Positions 35,761-41,839 of a stretch of 64,000 bases of DNA are shown here, one piece after another; within the stretch, counting starts at the first letter, position 1; each line of letters starts with the position of its first letter. The translations under genes were made by a program, and so were the position numbers. The notes beneath the pieces are model-generated. The model did no database searches. It saw nothing but the letters and a program-made list of their open reading frames with translations, and was not told where the DNA came from. Source of the DNA: Planctomycetota bacterium (lineage in GTDB: Bacteria; Planctomycetota; UBA1135); assembly GCA_002705055.1 (NCBI GenBank), contig PAHY01000033.1:62001-126000 (forward strand), written 5' to 3'.

Positions 35761-35791
35761 CCGCGCGGCCCGAAACGGCCGATAGAAACCC

Positions 35792-36730
35792 GTGGCTTCG
35801 CTCAAGCAACGCATCAAGGCGATCGCCCCGGTGGGACTCACCCACTGGGCGAAGACGCGCGCGCAGCATGCGAGGCTGAAGCGGTCCGGCGCGGCCGAGG
35901 CTCTGGCCGCCGCGCAGCCGGCCGAGGCCCGCCTGCCGCTGGACGCGCTGCGCGAGCTGGCCGCGGAGTTCCCGCCGCCCCCGAGCATCGACTGGGAGGG
36001 CGAGGCCTGCGTCGCCGCCTCGGCGGAGCTGGGCCAGACCCGGGTGCAGTGGATGCGCAAGTTCCTGGGCAGTCGGCTGAGCCCGGGCGCGCGCTGCCTG
36101 GAACTGGGTGCCGGCGATGGCGCGGTCGCCAGCGCGCTGGCGCAGACCGGCGTCCAGGTGCTCGCGGTCGACATCCAGCGCGGCGTCTTCGACGAGACCG
36201 GCCTGCACACCCACGTCGACTTCCTGGAAGCCGACGTCGAGAAGCTCGAGGCCGTCGAGGACGATCGCTTCGACCTGGTCTACTCCTTTGATTCAGTCGA
36301 GCACTTCGGCAACCCGGAGGCCGCGCTCGCGGAGGCGCTGCGCGTCACGCGGCCGGGCGGCTACGTCTACCTGCGCTTCGGCCCCCTGTATGACGCGCCG
36401 GATGGCAAACACCTCGGCGACCGCCTCGGCGTACCCTACGCCGGGGTGCTCTGCGAGGACGAGACCATCGATGCGCTGATGGCCGAGCAGGGTCGCGATC
36501 CGATCAATCACGAGTACTGCAATCACTGGCCGCTCGCGCGCTACCGCGAGCTGTTTGCGCCGCGGCCGGAACGCTACGAGATCGTGCGCGCCTTCGATCA
36601 CCTCGACCTGTCCGCGGTCGAGCTGATCGCCCGCTTCCCGGAGGTCTTCCGTCGTCGCGCCGCGATGGTGGATGCCTTCCTCGTCAACGTGATCGAAATC
36701 CTGCTGCGCAAGCCGACGCAGCCGCGCTGA
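35792..36730 (+). CDS. SAM-dependent methyltransferase, class I
   Basis: 312 residues. Motif I CLELGAGDGAVASAL, an acidic end of strand 2 in VLAVDIQRG, and FDLVYSFDSVEHFGNPE with a motif-like ALRVTRPGGYVYLR, as in UbiE/type-11 methyltransferases. GTG start at 35792. It is followed 3 nt later by a GT61 glycosyltransferase, so it could methylate a glycan or its precursor; the substrate is unknown. Confidence 0.8.
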   Translation: MASLKQRIKAIAPVGLTHWAKTRAQHARLKRSGAAEALAAAQPAEARLPLDALRELAAEFPPPPSIDWEGEACVAASAELGQTRVQWMRKFLGSRLSPGARCLELGAGDGAVASALAQTGVQVLAVDIQRGVFDETGLHTHVDFLEADVEKLEAVEDDRFDLVYSFDSVEHFGNPEAALAEALRVTRPGGYVYLRFGPLYDAPDGKHLGDRLGVPYAGVLCEDETIDALMAEQGRDPINHEYCNHWPLARYRELFAPRPERYEIVRAFDHLDLSAVELIARFPEVFRRRAAMVDAFLVNVIEILLRKPTQPR

Positions 36731-36732
36731 TC

Positions 36733-37992
36733 ATGTCGCGTCTGTCGGTGGCACTGCGCGCGCGTCTGCGCCCGACCTGGTACCGGCTCAAGCGCGCCGG
36801 CTATCGAATGCAGCTGCGGGCGGAGCGGCGCCGACGCGCGAGTCGTACGTATCAGCCGCAGGCCACGGACGGCCCGCTGGATCCGCCGGCCCGCACGGCC
36901 ACGACCGCAGCCGCCGCGTCATCCATGCAGGACGGTGTGAAGCGGCGGATCGTGGTGGATCCGCCCCAGCTGCTGCGCCGCGACCGCCCACCCCGGACGA
37001 TCGAAACCGAGCTGCACCCGCACTTTCAGTTCGACCTTGAGCACGAGGTGCCCGAGATGGCGGTCTGCGAGCTTCCGCATGGCCGCGTCTGGGGAGAGAC
37101 CGGAGCCATCGTCACCGCCGAGAATGTGCTGCTCGAAGATCTCTCGATCGCCTGGCAGCAGGACGACAAGTCGCGCGGCCAGCATCCGATCTTCGCCAAC
37201 TGGCGTTACCACCCGGTGCACCCGCTGCCGGGCCGCGCCGCCGCGCTGACCACCGACGGCGCGCAGCTCTACTACCACTGGCTGTTTCAGCTGCTGCCGC
37301 GGCTCGACCTGCTCGAGCGTGCCGGCATCGCGCTTGATTCCGTGGACCACTTCATCGTCAACCGCGCCACGCAGCCTTTCGAGCTCGACACCCTGGCGCG
37401 GCTCGGCATTCCGCGCGAGAAGCTGGTCGAGACGCGCGTTCACCCGCAGGTCTCCGCGGAGCTGCTGCTGGCTCCGTCCATCCCCCTGCACGGCAGCCAG
37501 TTCTCGCAGCCGCTGGTCGACTTCGTGCGCGGCCGACTCGCCGGTCTACCGCGCGCGCAGGAGTGCCAGCCGGGCGCGCGCCGCCTTTACCTGACCCGCG
37601 CGGGCGCCGGCTACCGCCACGTGGTCAACGAAGCGGAAGTGCGCGAGCGCGTGCTGGCCCGCGGCTTTGAAGCGATCGCGCTGGAAGAGCTGCGCTTCGA
37701 GGAGCAGGTTCAGGTCATGAGCGAAGCCGGCGTCGTGCTGGGGCCGCACGGCGGCGGCATGAGCAACACGGTCTTCTGCGCAGCGGGCACGCGTGTGGCC
37801 GAGATCTTCTCGCAGGAGTACGTCGCGCCCTGGTTCTGGTTTCTGGCCAACATCACCGGCGTCGACTACCACTACATGATCGACGCCGCCGCGCCGCGGC
37901 CCGAGCTCGCCGAACGCTGGAACCTCGGCGCGAGCATGCAGGTGGATCTGAGCAAGCTGGATCGCCTGCTCGATCAGCTGGACACAGCCTGA
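36733..37992 (+). CDS. Glycosyltransferase family 61 (DUF563) protein
   Basis: 419 residues. A basic N-terminus of about 60 residues precedes the GT61 core: TTDGAQLYYHWLFQLLPRLD, a TRAGAGYRHVVNE segment, and the C-terminal VLGPHGGGMSNTVFC with VAEIFSQEY. GT61 enzymes transfer xylose, GlcNAc or other sugars. It forms a likely operon with the methyltransferase and ends 19 nt inside the convergent sulfotransferase gene. A surface-glycan role is inference. Confidence 0.85.
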   Translation: MSRLSVALRARLRPTWYRLKRAGYRMQLRAERRRRASRTYQPQATDGPLDPPARTATTAAAASSMQDGVKRRIVVDPPQLLRRDRPPRTIETELHPHFQFDLEHEVPEMAVCELPHGRVWGETGAIVTAENVLLEDLSIAWQQDDKSRGQHPIFANWRYHPVHPLPGRAAALTTDGAQLYYHWLFQLLPRLDLLERAGIALDSVDHFIVNRATQPFELDTLARLGIPREKLVETRVHPQVSAELLLAPSIPLHGSQFSQPLVDFVRGRLAGLPRAQECQPGARRLYLTRAGAGYRHVVNEAEVRERVLARGFEAIALEELRFEEQVQVMSEAGVVLGPHGGGMSNTVFCAAGTRVAEIFSQEYVAPWFWFLANITGVDYHYMIDAAAPRPELAERWNLGASMQVDLSKLDRLLDQLDTA

Positions 37993-38993
37993 TCGGGCCA
38001 CAGTCCGAGCAGCTCGGAGGGCGCGATGATCGCCGAGATCTCCTCGATCTGCTGCGCGTCCAGGTCCTTGCGCCAGCGCTGCACCGCTTCCTTCGGATCG
38101 CGATGGACGCCGTGCTGCTTCTTCTCGTCCGACGCGAAAGCCTGGTGACGCGTGCCGGCGGTCGAGGCATCGATGAACTCGCGGACCGCGTCTTCGAGCG
38201 GCCAGCCCAGGAAGGCGAAGGCCTGCTCCGCGCTGCCGAGAGGATCGGCGGCAAAGCCTTCGTGCGTCACGACCAGCCCCTGCGGGTGCGCCGCGGTGAA
38301 GCGCGCCAGAGGCTCGGTCTGAATCCGCCAGCGCAGCGCTTCGAAGGCGGCCTCGGACATCGCCTCCAGCTCCGCCGGGGAGTAGGCGCGCATGCCGGGC
38401 AGCTCGCCCTCCAGCTCCGCGGTCAATTCGGCGACCCGCTGCAGCGCGTGCGCCGGACGGAACTCGGCCGCGGCGGTCTTGTGATAGAAGCGCAGCGAGG
38501 AGGACACGCTGGCAAAGGGCCCGCGCAGCACCGCCATCAGCTTCGGGTCCAGCGCCTCGCACAGCGCCGGCAGCTTCTCGTTCGGAAAGTTGACCTGCTT
38601 GGTCAGCACCCAATCGCCGTCGCGCAGCTTAGGCCGCCCGTACCAGTGATAGATGCCCCGCAGCGCCGGGATCGCCTTACCCAGCTGCCAGCTGGCGCGC
38701 AGCATCGCCGGCGGCTGGGGCCGACAGCTCTTGCGCAGGAAAGGCGGATAGTCGACGTCATGGACGCAGCCGCGCACCAGTCGGTCGTAGTCGATGCGTG
38801 CCTGCTCCGCCGCCTGCTCGCCCAGCGCATCCTGCCAGGCGGTGTAAGCACGGTTCTTGCCCGGGTTGAACGGCTCGTCCTTGTAGACGCAGCCCGAGAA
38901 GCGATTCAGGATCTGCGCGATCCACGTGGTCCCCGAGCGCCCCCTTCCGAGCAGGAAGGCGTGCTGAATCTTGGCGGCTGCGGGCGCGGACAT
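37974..38993 (-). CDS. PAPS-dependent sulfotransferase
   Basis: 339 residues with the 5'-phosphosulfate loop FLLGRGRSGTTWIAQIL near the N-terminus and a later MAVLRGPFASVSSSLRFY block that resembles the 3'-phosphate site. It transfers sulfate from PAPS to a carbohydrate, lipid or peptide. The adjacent GT61 and methyltransferase suggest a sulfated glycan. A 73-nt three-way-junction-like leader precedes the ATG. Confidence 0.85.
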   Translation of the reverse strand: MSAPAAAKIQHAFLLGRGRSGTTWIAQILNRFSGCVYKDEPFNPGKNRAYTAWQDALGEQAAEQARIDYDRLVRGCVHDVDYPPFLRKSCRPQPPAMLRASWQLGKAIPALRGIYHWYGRPKLRDGDWVLTKQVNFPNEKLPALCEALDPKLMAVLRGPFASVSSSLRFYHKTAAAEFRPAHALQRVAELTAELEGELPGMRAYSPAELEAMSEAAFEALRWRIQTEPLARFTAAHPQGLVVTHEGFAADPLGSAEQAFAFLGWPLEDAVREFIDASTAGTRHQAFASDEKKQHGVHRDPKEAVQRWRKDLDAQQIEEISAIIAPSELLGLWPDQAVSS

Positions 38994-38996
38994 GCG

Positions 38997-39069
38997 TGGC
39001 AGGATCCCGGGCGCACCCGGGCCTTCTTCATCGGCCTGAACCGGGGATGCGCTTCAGGCCATCCTGCCA
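38997..39069 (-). promoter_or_regulatory. Three-way-junction leader of the sulfotransferase gene
   Basis: A closing stem TGGCAGGAT/ATCCTGCCA (9 bp) encloses two hairpins: GGCCTGAA/TTCAGGCC (8 bp, 12-nt loop) and CCCGGG/CCCGGG (6 bp, 4-nt loop), joined by an 11-nt purine-rich linker. The closing stem ends 3 nt before the sulfotransferase ATG. The 83-nt gap between the genes holds almost nothing else. Confidence 0.5.
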
Positions 39070-39075
39070 GGGGGA

Positions 39076-39501
39076 CTACTCTTCCTGATCGGCAATCAGC
39101 TGCGCGCAGAGCGCCTCGATCTCCGCCGCGCTCGGAGCCTCATCCTGCAGCGGGCCCAACTCGCGCAGACGGCGAAACTCCTCGAGGTTGGAGGATTCCG
39201 CAAAGCAGCCAGCCTGCGGGGCCTGACTGGAGGCCGGCTGCCCCAGCGGCACCTGGCCATGGGGCTGCGGCGCGTTCAGCGAGCGCCGCGCATAGTCACA
39301 GACGTCCAGCGTGCGCGACAGATTGCGGTGCATGCGTGTCAGGCGCTCGGCCTGTTCCGCATGTTTGGCAGGGGCAGACGATGCCTTGTGCTGGGCAAGC
39401 CGCAGCACGGCGATCAAGGAGTCGAGACGAGCAAGCATCTCCGCGCGATAGCGCGGGTCGGCGAGACGCCCCCGGGGAGAGCGGGACGGGCGTTCTTCCA
39501 T
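39076..39501 (-). CDS. Hypothetical protein, helical and charged
   Basis: 141 residues, no signal or membrane segment. The middle is a likely coiled helix (AEQAERLTRMHRNLSRTLDVCDYARRSL), then a Gln/Pro-rich linker, and an acidic helical end (APSAAEIEALCAQLIADQEE). I do not recognise it. A long antisense ORF runs across the same region, but this frame has the more natural composition. A TAGCCT hexamer lies about 20 nt before the ATG. Confidence 0.5.
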   Translation of the reverse strand: MEERPSRSPRGRLADPRYRAEMLARLDSLIAVLRLAQHKASSAPAKHAEQAERLTRMHRNLSRTLDVCDYARRSLNAPQPHGQVPLGQPASSQAPQAGCFAESSNLEEFRRLRELGPLQDEAPSAAEIEALCAQLIADQEE

Positions 39502-39565
39502 GGCAACAGGGAATCACCGGAAGGCTACCCCGGGACCCGCTCAGCCGCGCGAAAACGCCGCGAGC

Positions 39566-40609
39566 TCAGACCTTCATCGACTCGAGGAACAGCACCAGGT
39601 CGCCGCTGGGCACCGGGCCGATCGAGTAGACCCAATGGTTATGGATCTGGCCTTCGATCAGGGTGACGCCGGTGTCGACCGATTCGAACAGGGTCAGCGC
39701 CTTGACCGGAGTGTCGCCGACCTTCTGGGCCGGGCCGCGATATTCCTGCGCGATCGCGACCGAACGGACGCCGTCGCTCATCAGCGTGAGCAGCATGTTG
39801 CTGCGTCCGGCGAACAGTGTCTGCGCGTGCAGCAGCTTCTCGTCGCGGTTCAGGAAGCCGGCGCCCGTCGACTCAATGACGAGCGGATCGAAACCTAGCT
39901 GACCGGCAGCTCCGCTGCCATCGTAGACCTCGGTGTCGACGTTGGCGGTCGCCCATTCGACGCCGCTCAGCGCGGGGCTGTAGTCCACCGTCGTCGCGTA
40001 CGAAGACAGGATCGGAACTCCGTCCGGATCCTCGATCGTCCAGCCGAGCAGCACCTCGGTGCTGGCATCGACATCCAGGACGATGTCGCCGATGTGGTAC
40101 TTCGAATCCAGGTGGTAGCGGTTCACCGGAATGCCGGCCACCGAGTAGCTGCCGGGCACGCTGTACCAGTCGTAGTTGCGGCTGGCGAGCGCGTTGTCGC
40201 GCACCACCGGGCCGCGGTACTTGGCGAGGAAGAACTGGCGCTGGTGATGCTGGAACTTCTCGGCCTGGCTGGCCACCGTCCACACCCCGCTGCCATCGGA
40301 GATCGAATCCAGCAGCAGCGCGAACTGACCCGCGCCATCGGCGTACAGGTCTTCGCGCAGTGCCTGCGCCAGGGTGCCTTGATCGTAGATGTGCACTTCG
40401 CTGCGCATCTTCAGCAGCGCTTCATAGGGCGCCACGATCTGGGGCATTTCCGAAAGCAGCGTGCCGCCCGGCAGACCCGGGCCATTGCTTTCGAGGCTCT
40501 CCTGCTCTTCGCCGCTGGTGTTGCTTTCGTAGCTGTAGGCGTCCGGCCGGCAGCTAACAAGCGACAAGGCAAAAGTACCCAGCGCGATCCAGGAGAGCGG
40601 GCGGATCAC
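39566..40609 (-). CDS. Lipoprotein in sigma-factor operon, possible RseB-like sensor
   Basis: 347 residues. The signal WIALGTFALSLVSC ends in a lipobox, then an acidic linker, then a long beta-type region with phrases such as FFLAKYRGPVVRDN, YHIGDIVLDVDASTEVLLGWTI and YRGPAQKVGD. Those segments recall the LolA/RseB fold of MucB/RseB, which senses envelope stress beside an anti-sigma factor, but the match is by eye. It overlaps the anti-sigma gene by 4 nt and is third in the operon. Confidence 0.7.
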   Translation of the reverse strand: MIRPLSWIALGTFALSLVSCRPDAYSYESNTSGEEQESLESNGPGLPGGTLLSEMPQIVAPYEALLKMRSEVHIYDQGTLAQALREDLYADGAGQFALLLDSISDGSGVWTVASQAEKFQHHQRQFFLAKYRGPVVRDNALASRNYDWYSVPGSYSVAGIPVNRYHLDSKYHIGDIVLDVDASTEVLLGWTIEDPDGVPILSSYATTVDYSPALSGVEWATANVDTEVYDGSGAAGQLGFDPLVIESTGAGFLNRDEKLLHAQTLFAGRSNMLLTLMSDGVRSVAIAQEYRGPAQKVGDTPVKALTLFESVDTGVTLIEGQIHNHWVYSIGPVPSGDLVLFLESMKV

Positions 40610-41097
40610 TGGGCTCCCCCTCGTTCAAGCGGGGCGCCGAAGCCGCGGGCGAGCGACTGGGCACCTTCGCTGAGCTCATCTGCCGAGACACGCACCATCA
40701 GCACCTTCTCGGCGGCGGCGTTCTTCGCGGCAAGATACGCGCCGGGATCTACCGGAGCGGTTTCGGTGCTCGACCACGGGCCGAGCATGATGCTGCCGAC
40801 CACCAGGACGGCGGCCGCCGCGGCGCGCGGCAGCGTCAGCCGGAACGGGAAGGCCAGCACCGGGCGGGTGAGCTGCCGGACTTCGGCGCGCACGCGCTCT
40901 TCCAGCTCGGCGGGAGCCTGCGCGGCTCCGAACAGGGCCATCTCCACCCGGTCGCGCAGCTCGGCGGGCGCGCTGACCTGACCCAAACGCGCGAGTCGCA
41001 CGCGATCCGCCAACTCGGACGGGGCGCGAACATCGCCGAGAGCCCGGAGGGAGTCCTCCAGTTCCTGCGGCAGCGCGTTGTGTTCTTCGGGGTTCAT
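40606..41097 (-). CDS. Anti-sigma-factor-like membrane protein with internal repeats
   Basis: 163 residues. The cytoplasmic half has three near-copies of a 20-residue unit (APSELADRVRLARLG, APAELRDRVEMALFG, APAELEERVRAEVR), then one membrane helix (AAAAAVLVVGSIMLGPW) and a short outer domain. Position and topology (18 nt past the sigma-factor gene) suggest an anti-sigma factor, but the usual zinc-binding HxxxCxxC is absent. Confidence 0.75.
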   Translation of the reverse strand: MNPEEHNALPQELEDSLRALGDVRAPSELADRVRLARLGQVSAPAELRDRVEMALFGAAQAPAELEERVRAEVRQLTRPVLAFPFRLTLPRAAAAAVLVVGSIMLGPWSSTETAPVDPGAYLAAKNAAAEKVLMVRVSADELSEGAQSLARGFGAPLERGGAQ

Positions 41098-41115
41098 GGG
41101 TCGAGGGAGAGAATG

Positions 41116-41715
41116 TCAAGCGCGACCAGCATCGTGATGGCGCTCGAGGTAAGCGCGCAAAGCAGCATGCGCGCGGTTGAGCCGGGACTTCACCGTGCCG
41201 AGGTTGCAGTCGAGCACCTCGGAGATCTCCTCGTAGCTGAGCCCTTCGATGTATCGCAGGGTGAGCAGACTGGAGAAGCGGGGATTGATGTTGGCGAGTG
41301 CGCGACGGACCTGCTCGTGCTCTTCGGCGCGTTGCACCTCGGCGAGCGGGCCGTTCACGTCCGGTTCGACTGCCGTTTCGGCGAGCCACTCGGCGTCTTC
41401 TCCGACGCGGGTCTGCACGCCCGCGCGCGGCGCGTCGAGACGGCGGCGGCGGATGTCGATCGCGGCGTTGACCGCGATGCGGTAGACCCAGCTGGAGAAC
41501 CGGCTGCGGCCCTGAAAGTCGCCGATCCGCCGGGCCAGGGTGACCAGAGTCTCCTGGGCGGCATCGAGGGCGTCTTCCTGGTTGCCACAGACGCGCAAAC
41601 AGATGGTGAAAACCCGATCCTGGTAAAGAGCGAAAACGCGCTGGAAGGCACGTTCGAACTCCTCGCCTTCCGCCGCCTGGCAGGCTTGAACCAGCTCAAG
41701 ATCAGGATCAGACAC
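41116..41715 (-). CDS. ECF-type RNA polymerase sigma factor
   Basis: 199 residues from GTG 41715. Region 2 contains CGNQEDALDAAQETLVTLARRIGDF and FSSWVYRIAVNAAIDIRRRR. Region 4 reads LRYIEGLSYEEISEVLDCNLGTVKSRLNRAHAALR. An Ala/Glu-rich linker separates them. It directs transcription of a stress or envelope regulon and is followed by the anti-sigma-like gene. The track start (41814) lies inside the upstream terminator, so it is rejected. Confidence 0.9.
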   Translation of the reverse strand: MSDPDLELVQACQAAEGEEFERAFQRVFALYQDRVFTICLRVCGNQEDALDAAQETLVTLARRIGDFQGRSRFSSWVYRIAVNAAIDIRRRRLDAPRAGVQTRVGEDAEWLAETAVEPDVNGPLAEVQRAEEHEQVRRALANINPRFSSLLTLRYIEGLSYEEISEVLDCNLGTVKSRLNRAHAALRAYLERHHDAGRA

Positions 41716-41766
41716 AGGAGTTCGCGCTTTGGACGGCCTTACAGGGCAGGGAGTTCCGAAATGTAT

Positions 41767-41803
41767 CAAAAAAAACAACCCGATCGCGGGGCAGCGATCG
41801 GGT
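41767..41803 (-). terminator. Rho-independent terminator
   Basis: A perfect 10-bp stem ACCCGATCGC/GCGATCGGGT with a 6-nt loop, followed on the minus strand by TTGTTTTTTTT. It ends the thrombospondin-3 protein gene that stops at 41840. Confidence 0.85.
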
Positions 41804-41839
41804 CGGTCGGGCAAGCAGCCCGAGGGAAGAAAGTCGCAA

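Follow-up and report, generated by a model that had tools for sequence, protein, structure and literature searches.

The element described here lies between two genes of the minus strand in a 64,000-nucleotide stretch of DNA, hereafter the window, from a Planctomycetota bacterium. Upstream, in the direction of reading, is a gene for a 141-aa protein (positions 39076 to 39501), and downstream is a sulfotransferase gene of 339 aa (37974 to 38993) that starts with ATG and matches the Pfam families Sulfotransfer_1 (6.3e-08) and Sulfotransfer_3 (6.5e-07). Neither Pfam nor NCBIfam has a match for the 141-aa protein, which is found in 38 of the 41 genomes searched, its own included. The intergenic gap is 82 nt long and, on the minus strand, consists of a 6-nt spacer after the stop codon of the 141-aa gene, a 73-nt element (38997 to 39069), three further bases (38994 to 38996) and then the sulfotransferase ATG (38993 to 38991). 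Upstream of the 141-aa gene on the same strand are an ECF sigma factor gene (41116 to 41814), a 163-aa gene and a 347-aa gene, the whole group spanning 39076 to 41814. The 163-, 347- and 141-aa genes also stand together at two other loci (L008 and L021).

The element is predicted to fold as a three-way junction. In the orientation of the mRNA, the closing stem of 9 bp is formed by a 5′ arm, TGGCAGGAT, at 39061 to 39069 and a 3′ arm, ATCCTGCCA, at 38997 to 39005; read on the plus strand, 38997 to 39005 pairs with 39061 to 39069 in the same 9 bp, again as TGGCAGGAT with ATCCTGCCA. The first hairpin (39033 to 39060) has 8 bp, a mismatch, 2 further bp and a loop of 6. It is followed by 11 unpaired, purine-rich bases, GATGAAGAAGG, at 39022 to 39032, which carry an out-of-frame ATG. 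The second hairpin (39006 to 39021) pairs CCCGGG with CCCGGG over 6 bp and has a 4-nt loop, TGCG, which we take to be a UNCG loop on the minus strand only. The strands joining the three stems are 0, 11 and 0 nt long. Because the 9-, 8- and 6-bp stems are all perfectly Watson-Crick paired, pairing by itself leaves undecided both the strand and whether the element acts as RNA or DNA. Both flanking genes lie on the minus strand, which is thus the mRNA strand, and the predicted fold is −43.9 kcal/mol on that strand versus −41.4 kcal/mol on the plus strand. A sequence-only reading had described a three-way junction with these stem lengths that nearly fills the gap and ends 3 nt before the sulfotransferase start, and sequence and fold bear out its coordinates, its stems and its extent (73 of the 82 nt).

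We compared the stability of the element with shuffled sequences and with a sample of the genome. The 73-nt element has a z-score of −3.95 and was equalled in stability by one of 200 shuffles, and among 20,000 shuffles of the whole 82-nt gap 57 were as stable, 80 were branched and 3 were both, figures that somewhat overstate its rarity because the gap was picked after the whole window had been viewed. The genome sample comprised the first 20 contigs (380 kb) and the window, 444 kb in all, from a genome that is about 85% complete; its genes were called with a short codon-usage script checked against the window only. In this GC-rich genome, a 73-nt stretch at or below −41.4 kcal/mol occurs in 17 of 108 sampled gaps, and the gap containing the element is fifth of 57 tandem gaps by energy per base. 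Looser three-way junctions number 83 in the 444 kb, all but 8 of them inside called genes, versus about 61 in Markov sequence. The fold is real as a prediction and its pairing is better than chance, but it is less exceptional within its own genome.

Searches for copies returned the element itself and no other. No second copy was found in its own genome with either the whole element as DNA or the 28-nt hairpin with 3 mismatches, in an assembly about 85% complete and by searches that strongly diverged copies would escape. A pattern search for the closing stem says little, since its spacing of 20 to 50 bases and two of its Cs misfit the element and made it blind even to the element itself. Similar DNA was not detectable in the other 153 genomes of the class (154 including its own), and no homologous intergenic region or element was found across the class or before sulfotransferase homologues. 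These homologues are few and distant within the order, the best being 32% identical, and their upstream regions show no evident common element, a weak comparison in which several starts are doubtful and at least one locus (L047) is a spurious match. Rfam returned nothing above the gathering score, the best hit being at chance level (13 bits, with 42 needed), and a scan of the genome contigs gave one partial, unrelated-looking match. The absence of homologues is a missing comparison and says nothing against compensatory change in the stems. A repeat family of the REP or MITE type is rejected because the genome holds one copy.

The gene order in related bacteria gives the locus a history. At 12 of the related loci that were read, the gene behind the 141-aa gene is nadE, on the facing strand and mostly in a tail-to-tail arrangement; at 9 of the 12, no more than about 50 nt separate the ends of the matches to nadE and to the 141-aa gene. 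At L023 the sequence past the 141-aa stop codon runs directly into the end of nadE, and at L013 and L020 the end of nadE is about 700 nt farther away. Most of these loci have the nitrilase gene ahead of nadE, and several have the 347-aa gene ahead of the 141-aa gene. In the window, a module (35792 to 38993) comprising a methyltransferase gene (35792 to 36730), a GT61 glycosyltransferase gene (36733 to 37992) and the sulfotransferase gene separates nadE from the 141-aa gene. The simplest reading of this gene order is an insertion on this lineage, loss in the other lineages being formally possible, and the sulfotransferase gene appears to have come to lie next to the 141-aa gene recently. Since the module stands between two usually adjacent genes, the element lies at one of the two apparent insertion junctions. 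A three-gene glycan-type module set between otherwise neighbouring convergent genes would carry more weight if the fold serves to fit the new gene into a host operon.

The start region of the sulfotransferase gene is ordinary, ranking 115 of 250 for structure and 133 of 250 for accessibility. It has no Shine-Dalgarno motif, and no sigma-70-like promoter was found nearby in a scan limited to that promoter type. Two ATGs occur in the gap and neither leads to the sulfotransferase: that at 39062 encodes MA and then a stop, and that at 39031 opens 41 aa out of frame. A longer coding sequence was considered and rejected; the frame is open for 20 codons upstream (359 aa) but has no usable in-frame start.

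We measured the excess of folding over shuffles after stop codons across the 444-kb sample, using 40-nt windows moved in 10-nt steps. In tandem gaps of 25 to 150 nt (61 genes), the excess peaks 30 to 40 nt past the stop codon at −2.8 kcal/mol. Where the next gene is on the opposite strand (24 genes) it reaches −5.8 kcal/mol at the same distance, and in tandem gaps shorter than 25 nt (83 genes) it is about zero. This excess includes transcription terminators, and the pattern does not by itself single out insulation. The element shows an excess of −8.1 at +30; its values are negative from +20 to +60, strong only at +30, and positive at 0 and +10. In position and strength it agrees with the genome pattern. 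The fold had also been called unexplained by its neighbours, a description that does not wholly hold: it begins 6 nt past the stop codon of the 141-aa gene, in a genome where folding follows stop codons generally when the next gene is not close. Strong hairpins that run up to or nearly to the downstream ATG are present in other tandem gaps of the genome as well (L041:283-348 and L043:11017-11088).

A comparable feature has been described as the ribosome termination structure, or RTS (Chemla et al. 2020, PMC7518266). Its role was published from a synthetic E. coli operon, together with a dependence of post-stop folding on gap length across bacteria that was proposed to stop re-initiation (PMC7518266). 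The likeness lies in a stable mRNA structure soon after a stop codon with the next gene at least 25 nt away, and at the genome level in the same dependence on gap length in our sample. The 40-nt window of the element at +30 folds at −18.1 kcal/mol, within the RTS threshold of −6 or lower, which is an easy one at this GC content. An RTS should also be more stable than randomised sequence in successive windows that begin directly at the stop, whereas the element has its negative values from +20 on, in a scan whose window step and randomisation may differ from those of the paper (PMC7518266). In contrast to the RTS, the excess here lies about 30 nt past the stop rather than 5. The element is also branched and reaches the next start codon.

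The best explanation, which we hold with about even confidence, would be that the element is an ordinary, lineage-specific post-stop structure of the 141-aa gene and most likely insulates two genes on one transcript. The 141-aa and sulfotransferase genes would be transcribed together, and a stable mRNA structure would form right after the 141-aa stop codon. Such a structure could discourage re-initiation by ribosomes that have just terminated (the element itself holds two spurious ATGs), and it may shield the upstream message at its 3′ end. Translation of the sulfotransferase would then either begin independently, with no Shine-Dalgarno sequence, or stay at a low level. The analysis shows a predicted fold beyond chance and a post-stop pattern across the sample; we infer that the structure forms in cells and insulates the genes, and that one transcript covers both. 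Its three arms are probably incidental. Against an insulator stands the extent of the structure, which runs on until 3 nt short of the downstream ATG, more than insulation needs. A lone well-paired intercistronic structure without demonstrated conservation, the element has little significance as it stands. It illustrates that, where a genome is GC-rich, a strong fold in a short gap needs to be judged against the post-stop pattern of that same genome.

One alternative is translational coupling by RNA unfolding, in which the structure closes the sulfotransferase initiation region until a ribosome ending at the 141-aa stop opens it. The front edge of the terminating ribosome would reach the 5′ arm, and the downstream gene would be translated only when the upstream gene is. 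The geometry would allow this, with a stop codon 6 nt before and an ATG 3 nt after the closing stem in a tandem gap of 82 nt, and with no Shine-Dalgarno motif at the downstream gene; coupled pairs with positive spacing are known, such as rpmI-rplT at +52 nt (PMC12548453). The element resembles such systems in having a structure between the stop and start of tandem genes, but differs in that, in the predicted fold, its start codon is unpaired and of ordinary accessibility. Coupling is also most efficient at short gaps (PMC12548453), in a reporter screen the next gene was expressed less when structure directly followed the stop codon (PMC7518266), and the sulfotransferase is apparently a recent neighbour of the 141-aa gene. 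We judge coupling unlikely. A narrower possibility, a lineage-specific cis-acting RNA that ties translation of the newly acquired sulfotransferase to translation of the resident gene upstream of its insertion site, appears distinctly improbable.

A transcription terminator or attenuator behind the 141-aa gene, which is the last of its strand in the relatives, is about as unlikely as coupling. It would have to be a hairpin without a U-tract. The facing arrangement with nadE makes this a natural place for a terminator, and small hairpins are present there in a few relatives (L007 and L017). GC-rich hairpins past a stop codon are likewise what the element shares with an intrinsic (Rho-independent) terminator. 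On the coding strand, however, the closing stem is followed by CGCATGTCC and not by a U-tract, which is at variance with the definition of an intrinsic terminator, and the sole call resembling a terminator falls within the element but on the plus strand. Among 34 strong post-stop hairpins in the sample, 15 have a T-rich tail, which makes a canonical terminator unlikely here; the other 19 have none, so that about half of such hairpins share this feature with the element. The scan that found no sigma-70-like promoter for the sulfotransferase also weighs against termination ahead of that gene, within the promoter type it covered.

That the gap is GC-rich and pairs merely by chance, without function, we judge slightly less likely again. 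This would be in keeping with the 17 of 108 gaps that are about as stable and with the 61 loose three-way junctions expected per Markov sample against 83 observed, but stability and architecture came together in only 3 of the 20,000 shuffles. It is very unlikely that the element is what remains of a mobile or recombination palindrome after the methyltransferase-GT61-sulfotransferase module was inserted: the element does lie at a junction of the apparent insertion between nadE and the 141-aa gene, but it is single in the genome, there is no matching arm at the other junction of the module (35761 to 35791), and the module has no transposase. Least likely of all is a riboswitch that senses a ligand, or another cis-regulatory RNA dedicated to the sulfotransferase. 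A three-way junction immediately before a start codon speaks for this, but the element is a single copy with no Rfam match and no conserved relatives, and its joining strands and perfect stems leave little room for a ligand-binding core.

The sequence-only reading had implied a dedicated structured RNA of this kind and had proposed looking for homologous copies. Its fold, extent and position stand, and the search of genome and class yielded the element itself only; with position as the one point in its favour, a special regulatory role for the sulfotransferase is not supported. A third copy of TGGCAGGAT is present on the minus strand inside the sulfotransferase gene (38829 to 38837), as part of a 17/20 match to the element's 5′ side. 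Pairing between this copy and the 3′ arm of the element would be possible, but the copy is probably there by chance.
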